Below, in pieces: positions 3,653 to 60,828 of a DNA stretch of 64,000 nt. Below the pieces are notes generated by a model. The model made no database searches. It saw only the letters and a program-made list of their open reading frames with translations, and was not told the origin of the DNA. Source of the DNA: Natronospira bacteriovora (GTDB taxonomy: Bacteria > Pseudomonadota > Gammaproteobacteria > Natronospirales > Natronospiraceae); assembly GCF_030848495.1 (NCBI RefSeq), contig NZ_JAVDDT010000005.1, forward strand, positions 62,001 to 126,000, written 5' to 3'. The translations under genes were made by a program, and so were the position numbers. Position 1 is the stretch's first letter. Every line of letters starts with the position of its first letter.

Positions 3653-3836
<184 letters not shown>

Positions 3837-8043: not shown

Positions 8044-10331
8044 GCAACGCCCTCCCCGCCATCCTCACAGGCCAGCACAAAGGACGACAGCCAGGCGGCC
8101 ACGATGCCCACCACCACGGTCAGGCCGAACTGGCCAAGGGCACTGACCTGGCTCAGGCCCAGCAGACCGAAGGCCAGCAGGGTGGTGACGGCGGCCAGGG
8201 CAATGCCGGTGACCCCGGGCGGCGAGACCCTCTGCTCGGCCGCCAGGAAGGCGGCGTAGTCCGCCCCCACCCCGAGCCCCAGGATCAGCCCCATGAGCAC
8301 GAAGGTATTGAGCCCGATCCCGCTCAGCCACAGAAACAGCAGGGTGATCGACAATGCACACAGGGGAGCGAGTGCCGGGCGCAGACCTCGCGGCCAGCCG
8401 AGAATGAGAACGAACAACAGGGGAATACCCAGTACCGCTGCCGTGAGTATCCAGTGCCCGGCCGCCCGCCGTTGCGCCGAGAGGTTTTCGTTCATCAGGC
8501 TGATGGGGCGAATGAAGCGCACACCGGGGGGAAGCGCGCTCTCGATTCCGGGGGCGCCCCGGGGAATCACCAGGCTGGCGGGGGCCGTTTCGTGCTTCAG
8601 CCACAGGCTGTCGGCCAGTGGTGCCAATGGCCCGCTGCCCAGGTCCCGCGGCTGTAACCAGCGCCCGTCGGCGGCGGCCCAGTCCCGGCGCAGGCGCTGC
8701 AAGCCCGCCGAACTCAGGCCCAGGGCCTGCAATTGTTCCATCAGGCGGGGGTTATTCAGGGCTTGCCCAATGAGGGCATGGGCCTCTTTCTGTCGCGTCA
8801 GCGGCGGCACCACGCGGGACAGGGCAATAGGGGCATCGGCCAGCCCCTGATCCAGGCGGCTCAGCAAGGCCTGCTCGCGTTCGAGGACAGTATCGGCAGC
8901 ATCACCCTCGACGATGAAGAAGCCTTCAGGGAAGTTCGTGCCGGTGAGGGAACGCAGATGCTGATCCACCGCCAGGCGCTCGGGCAGCTCGGCCTGGAAA
9001 GCCCGCAGATCATCCGAACCCGGGATCAGGGCGTAAGCCAGCACGCCCAGTGGCAGGCACAGTAACGGCAGCAGCCAGCGCACGCGACCCAGCCCGGCGA
9101 AGAAGGCCACCGGACGATTAACGCCCTGCTGCAACCGCGAACGCAGCTGGAGGGGGCGCCCGCGATCGGCAAAGGGGAACAGCCACACCACCGTAAGCCA
9201 GGCACCCGCCAGACCGGCACCGGAAAACACCGCCAGCTCGCGCATCACCGGAAAGGGGCTCAACGCCAATACCGTCAGGCACAAAAGACTGCTGGCCACG
9301 CCCAGCACCAGGGGGCGGCGCAGGCGTCGAACCACGTCGGCACCGCCACCGGGCGAGTCACCTTCGGCACGATGCACCAGGTACTTGAAGACATAGTCGA
9401 TGGCGATGCCCAGCAGCGTCGTGCCTGCCACCAGTGTGATCACATGCAGGCGGCCGAAGAGCAGAAGGGACAAGGCCACCGCCATCAACACGCCGGTGGC
9501 CAGTGCCAGCGTTCCCAGCAGCACCGGACGAAGACTGCCAAAGGCGAGCAGGACCAGCAGTACGATACCGCTCAGGGACAGAGTGGAGATCAGGGTGATT
9601 TCCGCCCGGGCCAGGTCACGCTGTTCCGCCGCAAACAGAACCGGACCGGTCACCTGCAGACGGCAGTCGCCACACTCGGCACTGGCCGCAAGCCTCGCGT
9701 TCTCGAGCGCATCGAGGACGGTGGCCTGAAAACGCCCGTCAAAGGCTTCACCCTGCAGCGTCATGGGCAGAAACCAGAAGGGCTCACCGGCCCGCTCGCC
9801 CTGCCAGAGTCCGCCGCGCGCCTGAAGACCGGGATAGGGATTGGGCAGCCGCGAGAGGTAGTCGCCCAGAAAGCCGGCGGGATCCTTGTCGAATCCCAGG
9901 CCGGGGGTGGATGAGGGGCGCGCCAGCCGCGCCTGAACGGCACGCAGATAGGCCTGGGCCGGATCCGCCCTCATGGCCTCAAGGCGGGTATCGCTAAGCA
10001 GGACAAAGCGCCAGTCGGCCAGGTGATCCAGCAGATCACGGCTGGACCCCGAGCGTACCGGCCGCGCCACGGCAGCGGCTTCCAGTTCGTCACGGGCCGC
10101 CCGCATGGCCGCCTCGGCGGCCACCGTGGGCCCGGTGACCAGCAGCATCAATTCGCCGGCAACGCCGAGACGATCCTGCTGCAGTGCCCGCGCCACCACC
10201 GGATCCTGATGTTCCGCCGGCATCAGATGGGTGATGTCGGTATCCAGCCAGTCTCCGTCGCCTGCCAGATGAAACCCGCCCACGGCGAGCACGGCCAACA
10301 GCATCAATAGCCAGAAAAGCGCCCCTCTCAT
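8040..10331 (-). CDS. apeM: MMPL/RND-family lipid exporter (ApeM type)
   Basis: A 763-aa inner-membrane protein with the two-fold MMPL layout. It has TM1, a large periplasmic loop (residues ~40-240), five TMs, a basic cytoplasmic stretch, then a second TM, loop and TM bundle. Motifs include GIAIDYVFKYLVHRAEG in the first half and GLGVGADYAAFLAAEQRV in the second, each with the membrane Asp expected for proton-driven transport. In APE clusters it is thought to flip or export the polyene lipid. It overlaps apeL and apeN by 4 bp each. Confidence 0.9.
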   Translation of the reverse strand: MRGALFWLLMLLAVLAVGGFHLAGDGDWLDTDITHLMPAEHQDPVVARALQQDRLGVAGELMLLVTGPTVAAEAAMRAARDELEAAAVARPVRSGSSRDLLDHLADWRFVLLSDTRLEAMRADPAQAYLRAVQARLARPSSTPGLGFDKDPAGFLGDYLSRLPNPYPGLQARGGLWQGERAGEPFWFLPMTLQGEAFDGRFQATVLDALENARLAASAECGDCRLQVTGPVLFAAEQRDLARAEITLISTLSLSGIVLLVLLAFGSLRPVLLGTLALATGVLMAVALSLLLFGRLHVITLVAGTTLLGIAIDYVFKYLVHRAEGDSPGGGADVVRRLRRPLVLGVASSLLCLTVLALSPFPVMRELAVFSGAGLAGAWLTVVWLFPFADRGRPLQLRSRLQQGVNRPVAFFAGLGRVRWLLPLLCLPLGVLAYALIPGSDDLRAFQAELPERLAVDQHLRSLTGTNFPEGFFIVEGDAADTVLEREQALLSRLDQGLADAPIALSRVVPPLTRQKEAHALIGQALNNPRLMEQLQALGLSSAGLQRLRRDWAAADGRWLQPRDLGSGPLAPLADSLWLKHETAPASLVIPRGAPGIESALPPGVRFIRPISLMNENLSAQRRAAGHWILTAAVLGIPLLFVLILGWPRGLRPALAPLCALSITLLFLWLSGIGLNTFVLMGLILGLGVGADYAAFLAAEQRVSPPGVTGIALAAVTTLLAFGLLGLSQVSALGQFGLTVVVGIVAAWLSSFVLACEDGGEGVA

Positions 10332-30168: not shown

Positions 30169-30390
<222 letters not shown>

Positions 30391-30399
30391 AATTGACAC

Positions 30400-41341: not shown

Positions 41342-41372
41342 CCCCCCCACACGCTTAATCCAGCACTGCCCT

Positions 41373-41484
<112 letters not shown>

Positions 41485-42011: not shown

Positions 42012-42206
42012 TCGTTGTCGTAATCGTTGTCGTTGTCGTAATCGGCTTTTCAAGCCTTGATGAAACCCGATTACGATTACGACTACGATTACGAGAAAAC
42101 CGAGGCTGCGGGAATGTTGCCTTTTAGCTCATTGCTCGTCGCTCGAAGCTCGTTGCTGCTATCTAAAAGCCGATTACGATTACGACAACGACAACGACAA
42201 CGAACC
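42012..42206. repeat. Hexamer-armed hairpin repeat, composite copy E
   Basis: A left arm of GTTGTC/GTAATC units (to ~42046), a loop, and a GATTAC/GACTAC right arm (42067-42095). A CTCGTCGCTCGAAGCTCG-containing spacer like that of copy B follows, then a further GATTAC, GACAAC arm ending at 42206. It stops only ~26 bp before the epmC start, so its last arm is probably in the epmC 5' untranslated region. Confidence 0.88.
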
Positions 42207-44528: not shown

Positions 44529-46769
44529 ATGCACCGGAATGCACTGCGTCTGGCGGGCGCCTGCCTGCTCGCCAGCACCCTGATCGCTTGCAGTCAGGAC
44601 GAAGGAAAGAGTGACACCATGACAGATCGTGACACGGCGGCCATCGGCAAGGCCGCGTTTGAAGCCCAGCGCTCCGTGGAGGCCCCGGTGGCCGAACGGC
44701 GCATGCAGTCCATCACCCAGCACGGGATTACCCGCGAGGATCCCTATTTCTGGATGCGGGATGACAACTGGCAGCAGGTCCTGCGCGACCCTTCCGTCCT
44801 TCGGGCCGAGATCCGCGATCATCTGCTGGCCGAGAACGAGTACCACGCCGCCATGATGAGCGACGTGGCCGGCCTGCAGGAGACCCTGTTTCAGGAAATG
44901 CGGGCGCGCATCAAGGAAGACGACAGCTCCGTCCCGGCCCGGGACGGCGACTGGGAATACTATGTGCGTTACCGGGAAGGCGGTGACTATCCGGTCTATG
45001 CCCGCCGCCCGGCTGGTGGTGGCGATGAGGTGATCCTCTTCGACGGTGATGCCGAATCCGAAGGTCATGACTTCTTCAACATCGGCGCCGTGGTGCACAG
45101 CCCGGATCATCGCCTGATTGCCTATGGCCTGGACACGGTGGGCTCGGAGTATTTCACCATCCGGGTGCGGAATATCGAAAGCGGCGAAGAATACAGCGAT
45201 GCCATTGAAAGCACCGATGGCCGCGCCGTGTGGGCCGCGGACTCCGGCAGCTTCTTCTACGTGGAGCGGGATGACAATCAGCGCCCCCGCTGGATTCGCC
45301 ATCATGTGCTCGGTGAAGACGCCGAGGAAGACCGCCTGGTCTATGAAGAAGAAGACAGCGGCATGTTCATCAGCCTGGGCAAGACCCAGAGCGGCGAGTA
45401 CATCCTGATCGGCTCGGGCAATCACACCCGCTCCCAGAGCTGGACCATCCCGGCCGACGCCCCGGACAGCGAACCCACGCTCATCGCCCCGCGCAAGGAC
45501 GATGAACTCTACTCGGTGGAACATCACGGGGATCATTTCTACATCCTCACCAATGCCGATGGCGCCGTGGACTTCAAGATCGTGCGCGCCCCGGTGGAAA
45601 ACCCCGGACGGGAACACTGGGAAGACTGGCTGCCCCATGAGCCGGGCCGCCTGGTCAGCAGCTTTGTCACCTATAAGAATCACCTGGTCTATCTCGCCCG
45701 CCGCAACGCGGTGCCGATCCTGGTGGTGTCGGACTACCAGGGTGATGGCTATGAAATCCCCATGGATGACGAGGCCTATTCCCTGGGCCTGATTTCCGGC
45801 TATGAGTTCGACACCGCACTCACCCGCTTCACCTACTCCACCCCCGCCCAGCCGGCCCAGACCTTTGACTGGCACATGGACAAGCGGGAGCGCACCCTGC
45901 GCAAGACCCAGGAAGTGCCCAGCGGGCATGACCCGGACCGCTACGTGGTGGAACGCATTGATGCGAAAACCGAAGATGGCGTGGCCGTCCCGGTCACCAT
46001 CCTGCGCCTGAAGTCCACGCCCCTGGATGGCAGCGCCCCCCTGCTGCTGTACGGCTATGGCAGTTATGGCGCCTACATGCCCGACAACTTCTCCGTGGCC
46101 AACCTGAGCCTGGCGGATCGCGGCGTGATCCGTGCGGTGGCCAAGGTACGCGGTGGTTCCGCCCTGGGCCGGCAGTGGTACCTGGACGGCAAGATGGAAG
46201 CCAAGCCGAACAGCTTCACCGACTTCCTGGCCTCGGCCCATGCTCTGATCGAACAGGGTTACACCTCAAGGGGACGCATCGTCATTGACGGGCGCTCCGC
46301 CGGTGGCCTGCTGGTGGGCGCCACCCTCAATCTCGATCCGGAAGTCTTCGGCGGCGCCATCGCCGGCGTGCCCTTCGTGGACGTACTCAACACCATCTCC
46401 GACCCCAGCCTGCCCCTGACCCCGCCGGAATGGCCGGAGTGGGGCAACCCCATCGAGTCGGAAGCGCACTATCAGTTGATCAAGGGCTATTCACCCTACG
46501 ACAACCTGCGGGATGATGTGCCCTACCCGCCCATCATGGCCACCGCCGGCCTGGCCGACTACCGGGTGACCTACTGGGAACCGGCCAAGTGGATCGCCCG
46601 CCTGCGCGCCGAAGCCCAGGGCGGCCCCTTCCTGCTCAAGACCAACATGGACGCCGGCCACGCCGGCTCGGCCGCCCGCTTTGATTCCCTGCGGGAGACT
46701 GCCGAGCTCTACAGCTTCGCCCTCAAGGTCATGGGCAAGGCCGAGGCTGAACCGGAGCCGCATCCGTAG
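44529..46769 (+). CDS. Lipoprotein oligopeptidase B-like S9A peptidase
   Basis: A 746-aa protein. The N-terminal signal ends in a lipobox (LASTLIACS), so it is probably anchored in the periplasm, unlike cytosolic PtrB. The propeller (residues ~90-470) begins after ITQHGITREDPYFWMRDDN. The hydrolase domain has the nucleophile Ser in DGRSAGGLL and the His in MDAGHAGSAAR. Oligopeptidase B cuts after basic residues in short peptides. ATG at 44529 follows GAGGAAACGGCA. A strong terminator follows. Confidence 0.92.
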   Translation: MHRNALRLAGACLLASTLIACSQDEGKSDTMTDRDTAAIGKAAFEAQRSVEAPVAERRMQSITQHGITREDPYFWMRDDNWQQVLRDPSVLRAEIRDHLLAENEYHAAMMSDVAGLQETLFQEMRARIKEDDSSVPARDGDWEYYVRYREGGDYPVYARRPAGGGDEVILFDGDAESEGHDFFNIGAVVHSPDHRLIAYGLDTVGSEYFTIRVRNIESGEEYSDAIESTDGRAVWAADSGSFFYVERDDNQRPRWIRHHVLGEDAEEDRLVYEEEDSGMFISLGKTQSGEYILIGSGNHTRSQSWTIPADAPDSEPTLIAPRKDDELYSVEHHGDHFYILTNADGAVDFKIVRAPVENPGREHWEDWLPHEPGRLVSSFVTYKNHLVYLARRNAVPILVVSDYQGDGYEIPMDDEAYSLGLISGYEFDTALTRFTYSTPAQPAQTFDWHMDKRERTLRKTQEVPSGHDPDRYVVERIDAKTEDGVAVPVTILRLKSTPLDGSAPLLLYGYGSYGAYMPDNFSVANLSLADRGVIRAVAKVRGGSALGRQWYLDGKMEAKPNSFTDFLASAHALIEQGYTSRGRIVIDGRSAGGLLVGATLNLDPEVFGGAIAGVPFVDVLNTISDPSLPLTPPEWPEWGNPIESEAHYQLIKGYSPYDNLRDDVPYPPIMATAGLADYRVTYWEPAKWIARLRAEAQGGPFLLKTNMDAGHAGSAARFDSLRETAELYSFALKVMGKAEAEPEPHP

Positions 46770-46795
46770 ACGTTGGACCTCAAGGCAATGAACAG

Positions 46796-46825
46796 GGGCG
46801 GTCAGGAATGACCGCCCTTTTTTTT
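46796..46825 (+). terminator. Intrinsic terminator of the oligopeptidase gene
   Basis: GGGCGGTCA, loop GGAA, TGACCGCCC, then eight T. A perfect 9-bp stem with a T-run, 27 bp after the stop codon. Confidence 0.92.
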
Positions 46826-46829
46826 GGAC

Positions 46830-47127
46830 CACGAAATGGACACTGAATGGACACGAGATGAAACCTTGAAAACATTTGGCCGCGAAATGGACGCGAAATA
46901 AACGCTAAATGAAAGGCGAAAAGATGATTGGCCACAGATGAACACGGATGGACGCAGATTTGGGCCGTGCTTGGGGTGATGCCGTGCTGCTTCGGAGGGG
47001 CCGTGCCTGGGGATGGCACGGGGTATTTGACCACGACATGGACACGACATGGGGTTTGGCACGGCGGGGGCTGACGGCCCCCTGTGGGAGCGGCTTTCAG
47101 CCGCGATGGCAATTGTTCGGTTGGCAC
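46830..47127. repeat. ~300-bp dispersed intergenic repeat, copy 1
   Basis: It starts with imperfect ATGGACACGA-type units and contains TTGGCCACAGATGAACACGG and then ATGGACGCAGAT. It continues through a GGAGGGGCCGTGCC stem and ends with the REP-like GTGGGAGCGGCTTTCAGCCG and GGCAATTGTTCGGTTGGCA. Closely similar copies lie at 50536-50790 and, inverted, at 52352-52645. Nothing else is seen in this 374-bp gap. Confidence 0.88.
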
Positions 47128-47142
47128 CCTCCCTGCCGCTTG

Positions 47143-48972
47143 TCAATGCGAGGGGGCTTGGTCAATGAATGGTTGGCGCCTGAGTCGCCAATTGGCGACA
47201 AAAAGGAGGATAAGCAACTCATAGGGCCCACGCCCCAGGCTACAACCGGATCCGGAGCTGGGCGGCGAGACCGAAATGGTCACGCTATCCTGAAGCGGGC
47301 TTTCATTCTCCTCAACCTGATCACTGACCAGCTGTAATGCGATCTCATGATCACCCGCCACCAGTGCTTCCATCCGCGTCGTGACCGTCACATGGCCTCC
47401 GGGCGGTATGGACTTGATCAGACAGATGTCCGACTGAGCCGAACGCTGCCACCAACAGGGGACATTGGCGGCGGTCAGCTCGAAGGCGTCCTCACGTCGT
47501 TGCAGGCGCAGGAACACATTGCTGGCCGTCGCCTCGCCCTGATTCTCTACACGCCAGTGATGATCGAAGGAGCGATCCCGCACCACCGCCGCCTCCGGCC
47601 AGGCATCACCAAAGCGGAGGTGAACGGGGGCGGCCTCCGGTTGAAACACCAGTGCATTGCCGTAGGCGTGGCCCAGGGCGGAGGGTCCACCGCCCATGGC
47701 GGCAACGCCATGGCTTCCGGCCGGTACCACCCCTGAGCCAAGCCGATGACCTACGTTATCCCAGCTGCGCCAGGTTGGCGTCAATTCGCCGAGAAGACGC
47801 CAGCCGGTGGCTTCGGAGGCATCGCGCCTGAACACATGCAGGGCGCCACCGCTCAGGGTCCCCGTTTCATCGCGGGCCGCGGGTTCGCCCACGATCAGGC
47901 GTTCGCCACTCCGCGTGAGTGTCGCCGACCAGCCAAAGGTGTCGTTGTAACCTTCCACCGGATCAGGGTTTTCCATGATCGCTGATCGCTCCCATTGATC
48001 CGTCTCCACATCCAGTTCATGGATATACAGACGCACCCGGCCACTCATTGGCTCTTCGGAACGATCTTCCCCCATCAACATCAGGTGATTTTCACCCAGA
48101 TACACCAGCCGATACTCCAGCGTCTCGCGTCCTTGCTCCGGCGCATCGCCCACCAGTCGCTGCGTGAACACCCACTCTCCGGACTCCGGGTCATGGCGAT
48201 ACATATAGGTGGCACCCAGACGGGCTTCCTCCTCTTCCACCCAGGCGTTCCTGCCCCAGACCGCCAGCCAGGGATAGGCCAGTTTCACTCGCATGCCGAA
48301 ATCGTCCAGAACCTGACCCTCCGGCCGGTCATGGGCCAGCAGCTTTTGCTCATAGACCCAGTCCGCCACGGATTCCTCCCAGCGGAAGAGATAGGTGGCC
48401 CCGTTGGAATCGGGCAGCGGCCCCTCGCCCAGGGTGGCACCCACCGCCAGCCAGCCACCGTCGGCCGCGACACCCGAGCCGAAACTGGCCGTGTTCGGCT
48501 CAGGGCGGTCTATGCGGCGAAGGAAGTCCACTTGCCCGCTGGCTGGATCACGGCGAAACTCGAACACCGCGCCGCTGTTCTGTGCATCCGGCGAACGATC
48601 CGCCCGAAACGCGCCCACGTAGAAGTGATCGCCATCAATATCCACTTCATTCCCGAACCGCGCCCTGCGATCAAGGCCGACCTCGGTACCCGGAATCCAA
48701 CGCTGCTCCAGCCACTGACCCTCGGCATTGGGCGCCATGATCACCGCCCCGCCCAGATCCTGTATGCCCTCTACGGTAGCATCGCCGATTCCGATCAGGA
48801 CAAAATCCTCATCGCCGGCAATGTCCGATATCAGCCCCAGGGCATCGTGAGGCGGCAAGGCGCCGCCATCAGGCAGCAACCCGTCCGGTGTATCGGCATG
48901 CAGGGACGGCAGGCCGCAGATCATCATCAGCGACAGGTATCGGCAGATCCGCTTCAAAAAACCCAGATTCAT
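47143..48972 (-). CDS. Secreted beta-propeller-like protein with C-terminal sorting signal
   Basis: A 609-aa protein with a signal peptide (FLKRICRYLSLMMICGLPSL). The middle repeats strands of FG-GAP/integrin-like type (FGNEVDIDGDHFYVGAFRAD, FGSGVAADGGWLAVGATLGE, FGWSATLTRSGERLIVGEPA). An Ig-like stretch (residues ~460-565) follows. The end is tripartite: GSGC with Cys577, a hydrophobic segment (YELLILLFVANW) and basic residues (RLRRQ), resembling JDVT-CTERM-type sorting signals. It follows a disrupted subtilisin gene by 43 bp. Probably a surface or envelope protein; the ligand is unknown. Confidence 0.72.
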   Translation of the reverse strand: MNLGFLKRICRYLSLMMICGLPSLHADTPDGLLPDGGALPPHDALGLISDIAGDEDFVLIGIGDATVEGIQDLGGAVIMAPNAEGQWLEQRWIPGTEVGLDRRARFGNEVDIDGDHFYVGAFRADRSPDAQNSGAVFEFRRDPASGQVDFLRRIDRPEPNTASFGSGVAADGGWLAVGATLGEGPLPDSNGATYLFRWEESVADWVYEQKLLAHDRPEGQVLDDFGMRVKLAYPWLAVWGRNAWVEEEEARLGATYMYRHDPESGEWVFTQRLVGDAPEQGRETLEYRLVYLGENHLMLMGEDRSEEPMSGRVRLYIHELDVETDQWERSAIMENPDPVEGYNDTFGWSATLTRSGERLIVGEPAARDETGTLSGGALHVFRRDASEATGWRLLGELTPTWRSWDNVGHRLGSGVVPAGSHGVAAMGGGPSALGHAYGNALVFQPEAAPVHLRFGDAWPEAAVVRDRSFDHHWRVENQGEATASNVFLRLQRREDAFELTAANVPCWWQRSAQSDICLIKSIPPGGHVTVTTRMEALVAGDHEIALQLVSDQVEENESPLQDSVTISVSPPSSGSGCSLGRGPYELLILLFVANWRLRRQPFIDQAPSH

Positions 48973-48975
48973 GAC

Positions 48976-49002
48976 GTCACCTGAAAAAGGGGGACAGGGT
49001 TA
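48976..49002. repeat. 27-bp repeat, copy 1 (inverted partner at 50374-50398)
   Basis: GTCACCTGAAAAAGGGGGAC followed by AGGGTTA. It is almost the reverse complement of the sequence at 50374-50398 (TACCCTGTCACCCC then TTTTTCAGTGAC). The two bracket the subtilisin pseudogene in opposite orientation. Confidence 0.7.
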
Positions 49003-49015
49003 CGATATCAAGGCA

Positions 49016-50342
49016 TCAGGGGCACATCACCCACTGCCCGTCTTCATCCTGATAGGGACAGGATGGGGGATCACTCCCGTCGTCACCGCCACCATCGTCA
49101 TCAGGTCGATGCCACTGGTAAAGCAGCTTGTTCGGGGAACCCGACAGATTGCTCAACACACTTTCGGTGACGTTGCCCATTATGGCGGTACGCACATCAT
49201 TCGCGAAGACATCAACTCCAACCGCATCGATATGGATAGCCGCGACACCGGCGACCAGCGGGGCGGCGAAAGACGTGCCTGAACTGCGAATGGTTGCGGA
49301 ATCACTGCTGTCCCAAAGCACCTCCACGTCTTCACCAGGTGCAAACAGATCAATTGCAGCACCCCAGTTGGAATGCCCGGCACGGCTGTCATCGATCGTG
49401 GAGCTGCCGACGGTCAAGACCTCCGACATCCTCGCCGGAACCTGCGTCGATGCATCCGCGTTGTCATTGCCGGCCGAGGCAATCGGCAATACTCTCGACG
49501 GAAGGTCCCGGATGGCCGATTCCATCGAACCCACTTGATCAACAGACTCATGATAGCCAAAGCTCATATTGAGAACCGCAGTGGAGCCATGAGCAGAGGC
49601 GTGATCCGCGACATCGTTAATAGCATCAATAACAAGACTTGCTTGCGAGTAACCCTTGCAATCAAAAACACGCAAGTCCTTTATCAAGGCGCCTTTCGCA
49701 GCCCCCACATCAAGCGCGCCGACCATGCCGGCGACCGCCGTGCCGTGCCCGCTTAGAGTGCCATGAACCCCGGCCGCCTGGATCGGACAAAATCCAGGGC
49801 AGGGGTCATAACCCGAGTCACATGTGTCATTGAAGTCGCCTTCACTGTCAAAGCGGTCATGAATGCGCTCGACCTGCCCGCTGAAGAACTGGTCATGCTC
49901 TGCCCTGACACCCGTATCAATGACATAGACGTAAACATCGGATCCGTCATGGGTATAGGAATAGGTATCCGAAAGCGGAAGCGCCCTTTGATCAATTCTG
50001 TCCAGACTCCAGTCCGGCTGATGCTGGGTCGTGCCACCATGAATGGTGACAATTCAATCCCGCTCGACCGCCCTGACCTGAGGCATTCGTTCCAACAGCC
50101 TGGCGCGCTGCTCCGTCATCTCGGCAACAAAACCCTTGTTGACATGCGTATAAACCAGGAGAGGCTCCACTCCCTGATTCGCCAGCACTTGATTCACCTG
50201 GTCGGGCACCTGACTCGGCAGGAGATCATCCCCGTCTTTCAGGCTGACAATCCAACGCTCAACATCAGAAGCTGAGGACGGGCCTTCAGATGCCTGAAGC
50301 GGGCCCGAGAGAGAGAGAGAGAAGCAAGATAATTCTTTTCAT
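49016..50342 (-). pseudogene. Disrupted S8 (subtilisin-like) serine protease
   Basis: From ATG at 50342 (AAGGAG 7 bases upstream) a signal peptide begins (MKRIILLLSLSL). A (GA)8 tract at 50307-50322 leaves it out of frame, and it would end after 18 codons. In the other frame the rest is a full protease: an I9-like propeptide (ERWIVSLKDGDDLLPSQVPD), then a TGA stop at 50056-50054, then the mature domain. The triad is intact: Asp in YVIDTGVR, His in GHGTAVAG, Ser in SGTSFAAP. With two lesions it should not make active enzyme. One more or two fewer GA units would restore the first frame only. Confidence 0.8.
50307..50322. repeat. (GA)8 dinucleotide tract in a signal-peptide region
   Basis: Eight GA units (TC on the coding strand) lie in the signal-peptide part of the subtilisin gene. 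Slippage would shift the frame, the classic form of a phase-variable switch, but a second stop downstream also blocks the gene. Confidence 0.85.
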
Positions 50343-50373
50343 GCGAATCTCCTTATGCGCAACTTTCCTGACT

Positions 50374-50398
50374 ACCCTGTCACCCCTTTTTCAGTGAC
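50374..50398. repeat. 27-bp repeat, copy 2 (inverted partner at 48976-49002)
   Basis: TACCCTGTCACCCC then TTTTTCAGTGAC. It contains a short stem GTCAC/GTGAC around CCCTTTTTCA, so it may itself be a REP-like hairpin. It lies 32 bp upstream of the subtilisin start. Confidence 0.7.
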
Positions 50399-50535
50399 AT
50401 TTTTTAACTTAGCTCAGATACTCTGAATTTTCCAATCGTCCTTGGACATGGCCGTCGCAGCGCCGTCACACAATCACCTCAGAGGGGGGAGCTGCGCGGG
50501 GTCGGGACAGATTCTCGCTGATGGCAGAGAATCCA

Positions 50536-50790
50536 TGACTACTAAATGGACACGAGATAAAAGGCGAAAAGATTATTGGCCACAGATGAACACGGATGGA
50601 CGCAGATTGGCGTCGTGCTTGGGGAGCCGCCTTGCTGCTTCGGAGGGGCCGTGCCTGCGGATGGCACGGGGTATTTGACCACGAAATGGACACTAAATGG
50701 ACACGACATGGGGGTTGGCACGGCGGGGGCTGACGGCCCCCTGTGGGAGCGGCTTTCAGCCGCGATGGCAATTGCTCGGTTGGCACGCCG
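50536..50790. repeat. ~250-bp dispersed intergenic repeat, copy 2
   Basis: Same order of segments as copy 1: ATGGACACGAGAT, TTGGCCACAGATGAACACGG, GGAGGGGCCGTGCC and a REP-like GTGGGAGCGGCTTTCAGCCG. It fills most of the 469-bp gap between the subtilisin start and the quinone oxidoreductase stop. The remaining part (50399-50535) holds no gene that could be supported. Confidence 0.88.
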
Positions 50791-50810
50791 GTTGTTTAAT
50801 GTGCGTCGCA

Positions 50811-52351: not shown

Positions 52352-52645
52352 TAAAGATTGTTATCGCGGCTGAAAGCCGCTCCCACAGCGGGCCGTCAGC
52401 ACCCACCGTGTCAGCCCATATCTTGTGTCCATCTCGTGTTCATTTCGTGGTCAAACACCCCGTGCCATCCCCAAGCACGGCCCCTCCGAAGCCGCACGGC
52501 GTCTCATCAAGCACGGCCCAAATCTGCGTCCATCCGTGTTCATCTGTGGCCAATCATCTTTTCGCCTTTCATATTGCGTCCATTTCGCGTCCATCTCGCG
52601 GCTAGTGTTTTAAAGGTTTTTATCTCGTGTCCATTTCGTGGTCAC
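52352..52645. repeat. ~290-bp dispersed intergenic repeat, copy 3 (inverted)
   Basis: The reverse complement of copies 1 and 2. It begins with the REP-like CGGCTGAAAGCCGCTCCCAC and ends with TCTCGTGTCCATTTCGTGGT. Its edge supplies the TGA stop of the hydrolase gene (52644-52642). It fills most of the gap between that gene and the NfeD-like gene. Confidence 0.88.
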
Positions 52646-58151: not shown

Positions 58152-58247
58152 TGAGTGCTGAGTGCTGAGTGCTGAGTGCTGAGTGCTGAGTGCTGAGTGC
58201 TGAGTGCTGAGTGCTGAGTGCTGAGTGCTGAGTGCTGAGTGCTGAGT
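58152..58247 (+). repeat. Heptamer tandem array (TGAGTGC)n, ~13.7 units
   Basis: Consecutive TGAGTGC units run with almost no variation from 58152 to 58247, beginning 6 bp after the HipA-like stop. It is the left end of a composite element whose right end (58640-58664) carries related inverted units (ACTCAGA). Such a perfect array is likely to vary in copy number between strains. Confidence 0.95.
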
Positions 58248-58664
58248 GGGGGCGGTAGAGGGTGCCGTGGTACTGGAAGTGTTACGGCTTCGAAGGTGAG
58301 GTGAAAGGCGTGAGGAGTGAGGTGAAAGGCGGGCCGCCTTTGGCGCCCAACGGCCGGCCGTCGGCCGGCCTGGTTTGCGCGCAGCGCGGAAGCCGCAATG
58401 CTTCGGGTTTTCACCTCACGCCTCACGCCTTACACCTCACATTCGGAGCCGACGAATGTGAGGTGGCACCGGCGCGGCTAACGGCTCCAGCCAAGCGCTG
58501 ATCGCGGCAGAATGCCGCTCCCACAGGCAGGGCTCCGATCAACGCCGCCTTCCGATTCACGTTTTACGATTCACGATTCACTCGAAAGGCCGATTACGAT
58601 TACGATTACGATTACGACTACGACAACGAGGGCACTGCCCACTCAGAACTCAGAACTCAGTACT
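58248..58664. repeat. Composite palindromic element, copy 1 (core and right end)
   Basis: Nested inverted blocks: GTGAGGTGAAAGGCGTGAGG (from ~58299) against TCACCTCACGCCTCACGCC (~58410), the hairpin GCCGCCTTTGGCGCCC region, GGCCGGCCGTCGGCCGGCC, a REP-like GATCGCGGCAGAATGCCGC, and then GATTCACGTTTTACGATTCA. A single hexamer arm (GATTAC, GACTAC, GACAAC; 58590-58631) and ACTCAGA units close it. It is homologous to 60430-60740. No gene is supported in this gap. Confidence 0.85.
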
Positions 58665-58667
58665 CGC

Positions 58668-60218
58668 TTAAAACCCCAAAGGAATCCCCAGCACAAAGAA
58701 GCCAACAAGCAGCGCCGTCCACACGCACAGGAACATCAGCGAGTACGGCACCATGATGATGAGCATGTCACCAAAGCCCATCTCCGGCTTGTACTTGCGC
58801 ATGAAGGCCAGGATCACGCCGGCGTAGGTCATCATCGGCGTGATGATGTTGGTGGAGGAATCGGCCACGCGATAGGCGGCGGCGACAAGATCGGGGGTCA
58901 TGTCGCTGTTCACGAAATACAGCATGGGAATGAAGATCGGGCCCAGCAGCATCCACTTGGAAGTCAGGCCACCGACGAAGATGTTGATGATGGCAGTGGT
59001 GAAGATGAAGCCGATGATCAACAGGATGGGGAACTGCTGTACCCCCAGGGCCAGCAGACCCTGGGAACCCAGATAGGTGATCCAGGCACCCAGGCCGCTG
59101 TAGGTCAGCACGCCGAGGAAGTTGTAGCAGAAGAAGGTCAGCACCAGGATGTAACCCAGTGTGTTCATCTGCTTGACCATGGCATGGACCACGTCCCAGG
59201 TGCGCTTGAAGTTGCCTGAAGCCACACCGAAGAACACGCCCACGATGGCGAAGAAGAAGGAAATCAGCAGGATGATGTTGTTGAGAAAGGGCAACTGGGT
59301 GTTGCCGGCCTCATCGGTGTAGGGCGCCAGCGGGCCCAGTGAAAGCCCGACAATCACCAGGGCCGCCACCAGCACGCCCAGCAGGGAGGCACGCAGGCCA
59401 CGCTTCTCGGCGTCCGTCACCTGGAACTCGTCGAAGTTGATTTCCTCCGGCACCACCCAGCTTTGTTTCTCCAGGCGCGGCTTGACCCAGCGATGGGTCA
59501 CCCAGGCGCCCACACCGGCCAGCACGAAGGTGGACACGGCAATGAAGTAGTAATGCATGGTGGCCGGGCGCAGGGTATCGCCGGCGGCATTCTCGAAGGG
59601 CACGCCCTGGGACTCGGCGAAGACCTGGGCGTTCATGCCGATGATCACATCCACCGGTGTCCCCGGAATCAGATTGGCACTGAAACCGGCCGAGACCCCG
59701 GCGAAGGCGGCCGCCATACCGATCAGTGGATTCTGTCCGATGCCGGCATACAGCAGGCCGGCCAAGGGTATCAGTACGAGATACCCGGCATCGGTAGCCA
59801 CCGAACTGGTGATGCCAAGGAAGATCAACAGCAGGGGCAGCCACTTGACCGGCAGGTGCAGGCCGATGCGCTTGATCAGCGCCGCAAACAGGCCGGAATG
59901 CTCGGCAATACCAATGGCCAGCATGACCACCAGAATCACCCCCAGCACCCCATTGCCGAAGGCCAGCCAGTTCTCCACCAGGGCATTGTCGAACAGCCAA
60001 CGCACATGCTCGGCTTCATGCATGGCCTTGATCGAATAGGTCACCGGCTCGCCACCGGCTCCCATGGACTCGAATTCATGCCCGCCCATGAGCATGGCCA
60101 GCAGAATGGACGCCGGCAGCAGCACCATGAAGATGATGACCGGATCGGGGATCTTGCGCCCCACCCGCTCAACCCAACTGCCAAAGGCCTGCCCTCGGCT
60201 GTGCGCCGTTTCACTCAT
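58668..60218 (-). CDS. AbgT-family transporter
   Basis: A 516-aa polytopic protein. The start VERVGRKIPDPVIIFMVLLP, the two hairpin-type motifs FLGITSSVATDAGYLVLIPL and GFSANLIPGTPVDVIIGMNA, and YRVADSSTNIITPMMTYAGV are characteristic of AbgT/MtrF. Family members take up p-aminobenzoyl-glutamate or export sulfonamides and similar compounds by proton coupling. It is flanked on both sides by composite repeats, and its TAA stop meets the right end of element copy 1. Confidence 0.93.
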   Translation of the reverse strand: MSETAHSRGQAFGSWVERVGRKIPDPVIIFMVLLPASILLAMLMGGHEFESMGAGGEPVTYSIKAMHEAEHVRWLFDNALVENWLAFGNGVLGVILVVMLAIGIAEHSGLFAALIKRIGLHLPVKWLPLLLIFLGITSSVATDAGYLVLIPLAGLLYAGIGQNPLIGMAAAFAGVSAGFSANLIPGTPVDVIIGMNAQVFAESQGVPFENAAGDTLRPATMHYYFIAVSTFVLAGVGAWVTHRWVKPRLEKQSWVVPEEINFDEFQVTDAEKRGLRASLLGVLVAALVIVGLSLGPLAPYTDEAGNTQLPFLNNIILLISFFFAIVGVFFGVASGNFKRTWDVVHAMVKQMNTLGYILVLTFFCYNFLGVLTYSGLGAWITYLGSQGLLALGVQQFPILLIIGFIFTTAIINIFVGGLTSKWMLLGPIFIPMLYFVNSDMTPDLVAAAYRVADSSTNIITPMMTYAGVILAFMRKYKPEMGFGDMLIIMVPYSLMFLCVWTALLVGFFVLGIPLGF

Positions 60219-60286
60219 GGTCCTGCTCCGGAGATAAGGGAAATCAGCGGGGGATCATAGACCAGGGTGGGGATGGGTGCCAATTT

Positions 60287-60828
60287 AAAGTGCTGAGTGT
60301 TGAGTGCTGAGTGCTGAGTGGGTGCGGGTCGGAGGGGGTGGGGGCTAATCGAAGGGGCGGGGCTTTCGGTTGGCACCTCGTGAATCGTGATTTGTAAAAC
60401 GTGAATCGGAGGGCGGCGTTAGAAGATGCCGGGGTAATGGGAGTGTTGCGGCTTCGAAGGTGAGGTGTGAGGCGTGAGGGGAAAGGCGGGGCGCCTTTGG
60501 CGCCCAACGGCCGGCTGTCGGCCGGCCTGGTTCGCGCAAAGCCTGGAAGCCGTGAGGCTTCGGGTTTTCACCTCACACCTCACACCTCACTCCTCACTTT
60601 CGGAGCCGGCGAATGGGCGGTGGCACCGGCGCGGCTAACGACTCCGAACAACGCTGATCGAGGCTAAAGCCTCTCCCACAGGCACGCCTCCGATCAACGC
60701 CGCCTTCCGATTCACGTTTTACGTTTCACGATTCACGGAACGCCACTCGCAGCCCCGACCCTCCAAGAACCGCCGGCCCCTCCGACCCGCACCCACTCAG
60801 CACTCAGCACTCAGCACTCAGCACTAAT
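60287..60828. repeat. Composite palindromic element, copy 2
   Basis: The left end has TGAGTGC/TGAGTGT units (60294-60320) followed by GGGTGCGGGTCGGAGGGG. The right end is the mirror image: CCCCTCCGACCCGCACCCAC then four ACTCAGC units (60778-60825). Inside, 60379-60420 (GTGAATCG type) mirrors 60696-60737, and the GTGAGGTGTGAGG block near 60459 mirrors TCACACCTCACACCTCAC near 60570. A hairpin GGGGCGCC-TTT-GGCGCCC is at the middle. It ends 3 bp before the lipoprotein stop. No gene is supported in this 614-bp gap. Confidence 0.88.

Follow-up and report, generated by a model that had tools for sequence, protein, structure and literature searches.

A subtilisin gene interrupted twice

We analysed a stretch of 64,000 nucleotides (nt) of the Natronospira bacteriovora genome (the window; contig NZ_JAVDDT010000005.1, positions 62,001 to 126,000), in which the gene of a subtilisin (peptidase family S8) and that of an FG-GAP protein form an operon on the minus strand. 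The start codon of the protease gene is separated from the protease frame by a dinucleotide slippage tract, and the frame is interrupted once more by a stop codon. In the order of reading, the features are:

50323..50342, minus strand: start codon (ATG 50342-50340, with an AAGGAG-type ribosome site ahead), followed by the beginning of the signal peptide (MKRIILL)
50307..50322, minus strand: (TC)8 slippage tract, equal to (GA)8 on the plus strand, which puts the start out of the protease frame
50057..50306, minus strand: remainder of the signal peptide, then the I9-type propeptide (with an Inhibitor_I9 match), both in the protease frame
50054..50056, minus strand: in-frame TGA stop, with a sense codon at the corresponding position of the paralogues
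49016..50053, minus strand: subtilisin (S8) domain, linker and CPYxxEDGxWxxCP tail, 345 open codons
47143..48972, minus strand: 43 nt past the protease, the gene of an FG-GAP protein of 609 amino acids whose C-terminus resembles a sorting tag

The original prediction described a good start signal uncoupled from the protease by the (GA)8 tract, and a TGA within the propeptide; both descriptions hold. The frame of the ATG reaches a stop a few codons past the tract. Between the tract and its own stop at 49018-49016, the protease frame has the TGA at 50056-50054 (about codon 96, numbered from the ATG) as its sole interruption. The Inhibitor_I9 Pfam match (1.4e-5, 26.1 bits, cut-off 21.2) lies upstream of the TGA and the Peptidase_S8 match downstream of it. 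An alternative protease-frame start upstream of the tract is ruled out by a stop encountered there, and the 49016..50053 segment contains no protease-frame start ahead of the catalytic Asp.

The triad and the rest of the protein had also been described as intact, in agreement with the alignment: the stretches around Asp, His, Asn and Ser, which we take to be the catalytic ones, are preserved and alignable with aqualysin (4dzt). The S8 fold is evident as a prediction from the sequence, and the copy combines an S8 domain and its catalytic residues with an I9 propeptide, as a secreted S8 protease does. It lacks a single uninterrupted frame from start to stop, given the tract frameshift and the TGA, and as assembled it is a pseudogene. 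Behind an Asp/Gly-rich linker the protein ends with the CPYxxEDGxWxxCP-type tail (49016-49060), which is common to 5/5 aligned family members, in a slightly altered version in Aliidiomarina. No such tail was found when 18 other S8 loci, some of which possibly end before the gene end, were scanned for the motif.

The window copy has not accumulated excess changes at its conserved sites. At columns invariant in four relatives the window protein differs in 5 of 78, and the same test on each of the four relatives gives 10/83, 5/78, 9/82 and 28/101 differences. This is what a recent inactivation, as originally proposed, predicts.

Long TC tracts mark three related protease genes

Tracts of this kind are rare. 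(GA)8 does not occur in 100 dinucleotide-preserving shuffles of the window, and a first-order chain fitted to the window gives an expectation of about 0.011 GA/TC tracts of at least 7 units per genome (the GA and TC figures summed). The whole 3.0-Mb genome has 13 raw (GA)7 matches, which represent just three tracts; lowering the threshold to 5 GA/TC units adds one more, and (AC)6 is absent from the whole genome. All three tracts of at least 7 units sit at the starts, in the signal peptides, of S8 genes. A search of the genome for S8 domains gives 16 places, two of them within one open frame, that is, about 15 genes, and the three that bear tracts are, with the window copy included, the best matches to the window protein. 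As in contingency genes, the tract is perfect, its length is far beyond chance and its unit number sets the reading frame.

Runs of at least nine G or C were also collected in this genome (19 raw matches; 13 loci listed with their surrounding frames). One of them adjoins another S8 gene and lies in the spacer preceding it.

In the first paralogue (L022, G000:C2:28154) the signal peptide MRKLLI... enters a (TC)11 tract, and in the second (L023, C2:442973) MKYLLT... enters (CT)13. Their proteins are 58% and 51% identical to the window protein. Both starts are out of the protease frame, which otherwise extends without a stop over 473 and 460 amino acids, respectively, and just after the tract the protease-frame reading resembles a signal-peptide end (IASPFASA and LATPLNA). 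Across the three genomic copies the tract begins 16, 16 and 20 nt past the first base of the start codon. The proposal that the tract is a phase switch gains support from these two paralogues with longer tracts at the equivalent place, out of frame and otherwise open.

The tracts are not leftovers of a recent duplication, since four-fold sites are saturated (25-40% identity in the six pairs among the three genomic copies and the copy of the relative G001) and these genes use CTC for Leu and TCT for Ser as minority codons. Long perfect tracts have thus been kept or regrown in the three paralogues. Such upkeep or regrowth is seen in all three saturated paralogues and, with another repeat, in Aliidiomarina; it is not seen in G001.

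A different tract at the equivalent place in another genus

A scan of the relatives' genome contigs gave 25 loci, and the frames across the signal peptide were inspected for two of them. The best locus, in Natronospira sp. CSSed10_283R1 (corresponding by coordinates to G001:C99), has the operon, with no tract and no visible in-frame signal peptide. G001 is listed under the genus of the window's genome, and this match thus assigns that genome to Natronospira. The second-best, in Aliidiomarina sp. B3213, holds the closest homologue outside the genus, with the same two-gene operon and a similar protease tail. Its signal peptide (MKHQWKYLLALTIIGAIF...) is separated from the protease, out of frame, by a C10 tract, the sole run of at least eight identical bases in the 9-kb locus. 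This adds to the case for a phase switch, and we regard another repeat type at the equivalent operon position in another genus as the best indication that slippage tracts are favoured there. (GA)7 occurs in 3 of the 55 other relatives searched, and none was seen at a protease start.

Other repeats and homologues were noted in this survey. Four Acinetobacter-type homologues (L061, L062, L063, L078) contain A8 runs, three loci (L059, L071, L074) have repeats 384-610 nt ahead of the match, and 32 plasmid records carry general S8 homologues with identity below 60%.

All four tract-bearing copies (three genomic and one of Aliidiomarina) are out of frame, and the shift has the same sense in each. 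The odds of such a shared register are 1/27, worked by hand for three later copies sharing the register of the first. A systematic loss of one unit by stutter would yield exactly this identical step, and the genes could then be truly in frame with every tract called one unit short. We consider such an assembly error very improbable. The two genera were assembled separately and look alike, tracts of 10-26 nt fit within short reads, the TGA lies outside any repeat and requires a separate error, and the tracts are prone to slippage in any case.

The same register also agrees with recoding, in which the ribosome or the RNA polymerase slips back one unit and seemingly off genes give a low constant supply of protease, because slipping back by exactly one unit leads into the protease frame in 4/4 copies. 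However, single-unit loss from in-frame ancestors accounts equally well for the register, and translation of the window copy is still terminated by the TGA. The RNA past the four tracts does not exceed shuffles in structure (z of -0.96, -0.76, -0.05 and -0.82); downstream structure as a recoding signal was rejected for lack of excess, and recoding is weakly supported for this reason. We hold it to be highly unlikely, as is a combined version in which the tract serves as a recoding site and a mutational switch at once and the one-unit back-slip gives a low, uneven protease supply. If true, the latter would mean that a slippery signal peptide is central to the design of the subtilisin/FG-GAP operons of haloalkaliphiles and that different repeat types evolved to serve one purpose.

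The FG-GAP partner and the lack of intact proteases

Downstream of all three genomic protease copies lies an FG-GAP gene with a product of about 600 amino acids. In the L023 locus (8373-8600; G000:C2 approximately 444372-444600) its signal peptide and body are in separate frames, so that it is broken as assembled. The C-terminus of the protein, with a Cys motif, a hydrophobic stretch and a basic end, resembles the JDVT/MYXO-CTERM tags of surface proteins, whose sorting-tag architecture is described in PMC11980579. Unlike those, its scores stay under the model cut-off: the NCBIfam JDVT-CTERM model, for which at least 27 bits are needed, reaches a maximum of 16.6 bits (L022) and 15.6 bits (G001) and has no match to the window FG-GAP protein. 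A sorting protease of the MrtJ type is encoded at G000:C7:143105-143377 (109.4 bits, cut-off 75). The FG-GAP versions of Aliidiomarina and of the more distant genome G441 have no C-terminal Cys.

The second gene is rare. It was found in 2 of 56 relatives and, at an E-value of 1e-30, in 1 of 369 genomes of the class, namely the window's own. In another family, 45 of 395 genomes have a match at 1e-10, and only that of G441 covers most of the profile; seven other regions of those 45, inspected by eye, have shorter FG-GAP-type proteins and no adjoining protease. In G441 (L160, G441:C1:801500-808000) the FG-GAP gene stands alone with a seemingly truncated start, and a DDE transposase gene occupies the place of the protease beside it. 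A search for virus-borne relatives of the second gene gave 10 stretches that fit a pattern, of which none was confirmed.

Such loci are what plain decay would leave, that is, an operon on its way out, with the tracts as mutation hot spots that break genes and no selected switch. As assembled, six of six loci are without an intact secreted protease (three through out-of-frame tracts, in the window with the TGA in addition, then G001 with its missing signal peptide, Aliidiomarina with its C10 tract and G441 with the transposase), and the FG-GAP gene of L023 is frameshifted as well. However, decay gives no reason to expect that saturated paralogues carry long perfect tracts at a single position, that another genus has a different tract at the equivalent spot, or that the protease frames of both paralogues stay open over the full length. 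We therefore regard decay as an unlikely account, though a less remote one than assembly error or recoding.

Proposed mechanism of protease switching

Hence, we suggest as the probable explanation that the genome holds three paralogous subtilisin and FG-GAP operons with a slipped-strand TC phase switch in the core of the signal peptide, and that the window copy is a recent pseudogene derived from an off-allele. The tracts, their registers, the operon, the paralogy and the nonsense codon are directly visible in the assemblies; from them we infer switching in living populations, the order of events, the secretion of the product and any effect on the second gene.

Step 1: During replication, slipped-strand mispairing would alter the number of TC units in the tract.

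Step 2: The unit number would decide whether the start codon and the signal peptide share the frame of the protease.

Step 3: One part of the population would then secrete the protease and another part would not.

Step 4: In the window copy the off allele presumably came first. We propose that selection was lifted from the silent gene, with the nonsense codon gained afterwards.

Several observations weigh against this scheme. Only one allele per locus is seen, with a single assembly per strain, and it is the off one in every tract-bearing copy. Assembly stutter, single-unit losses from in-frame ancestors or one-unit backward recoding could each give the register that the four copies share. The operon of G001 has neither a tract nor a visible in-frame signal peptide, the protease of G441 is lost, and the second gene of L023 is frameshifted. 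Since no locus of the six, G001 and G441 included, has an intact secreted protease as assembled, plain decay stays alive as an alternative.

Other repeats in the window

A scan of 46700-50800 for promoters and terminators gave no excess over shuffles (2 vs a mean of 1.3 and 4 vs 3.2, respectively). An intergenic repeat of about 230-280 bp with GTGGGAGCGGC-type palindromic ends is present at 46846-47127, 50557-50786 and 52357-52635, and is 86-90% identical between these places. Arrays of the hexamers CGTTGT/CGATTA/CGACAA lie at 3657-3834, 30265-30391, 41372-41483, 42068-42203 and 58591-58629 and face one another like the arms of a hairpin; a hexamer array is also present upstream of the first paralogue. 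Heptamer arrays extend across 58152-60825 and include 13.9 copies of TGAGTGC at 58152-58248.

Comparison with known systems and implications

Over the catalytic domain, the best solved relatives of the window family are the aqualysin/proteinase K subtilases (4dzt, 2b6n, 1s2n), which share the I9 and S8 domains. Unlike these, the window family has an insertion ahead of the catalytic His, the Asp/Gly-rich linker, the CPYxxEDGxWxxCP tail and the slippage tract in the signal peptide.

The switch has a close parallel in oipA of Helicobacter pylori, where, according to PMC10564699, CT repeats lie in the signal-peptide coding region and their number sets the frame. Both cases have a CT dinucleotide tract in this part of the gene and a frame set by its units. 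Unlike oipA, the Natronospira gene encodes a predicted secreted protease, forms an operon with an FG-GAP protein, belongs to a free-living organism and is seen in one assembly per strain. The subtilisin-like serine protease NalP of Neisseria meningitidis is phase-variable by slipped-strand mispairing at a coding-region repeat, as PMC5472700 states; NalP is a lipidated autotransporter and its tract is poly-C, whereas the Natronospira tract is TC. In Pfam searches the window copy, both paralogues, G001 and the Aliidiomarina protein match solely S8 and I9, with no autotransporter beta-barrel of the NalP type.

The mechanism is therefore already known, and what is new is the setting in free-living haloalkaliphiles and the two repeat types in one operon family. 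Literature searches on Natronospira, on phase variation in Aliidiomarina and on phase-variable subtilases or proteases, with most subscription journals outside their coverage, returned no report of the family. Phase variation driven by repeats has mostly been described in host-adapted pathogens, in which it is explained by immune evasion. Natronospira is a protein-utilising genus of soda lakes (PMC7691419), and two of its species are termed predatory in a title cited by PMC12281875.

A three-copy family in such a free-living proteolytic soda-lake genus, together with the tract in a second genus, suggests a random switch on secreted proteases. A secreted protease is a costly shared good, and the switch may thus bear on environmental bet-hedging or on public-goods cheating. 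The window copy would illustrate how an off state turns into permanent loss.
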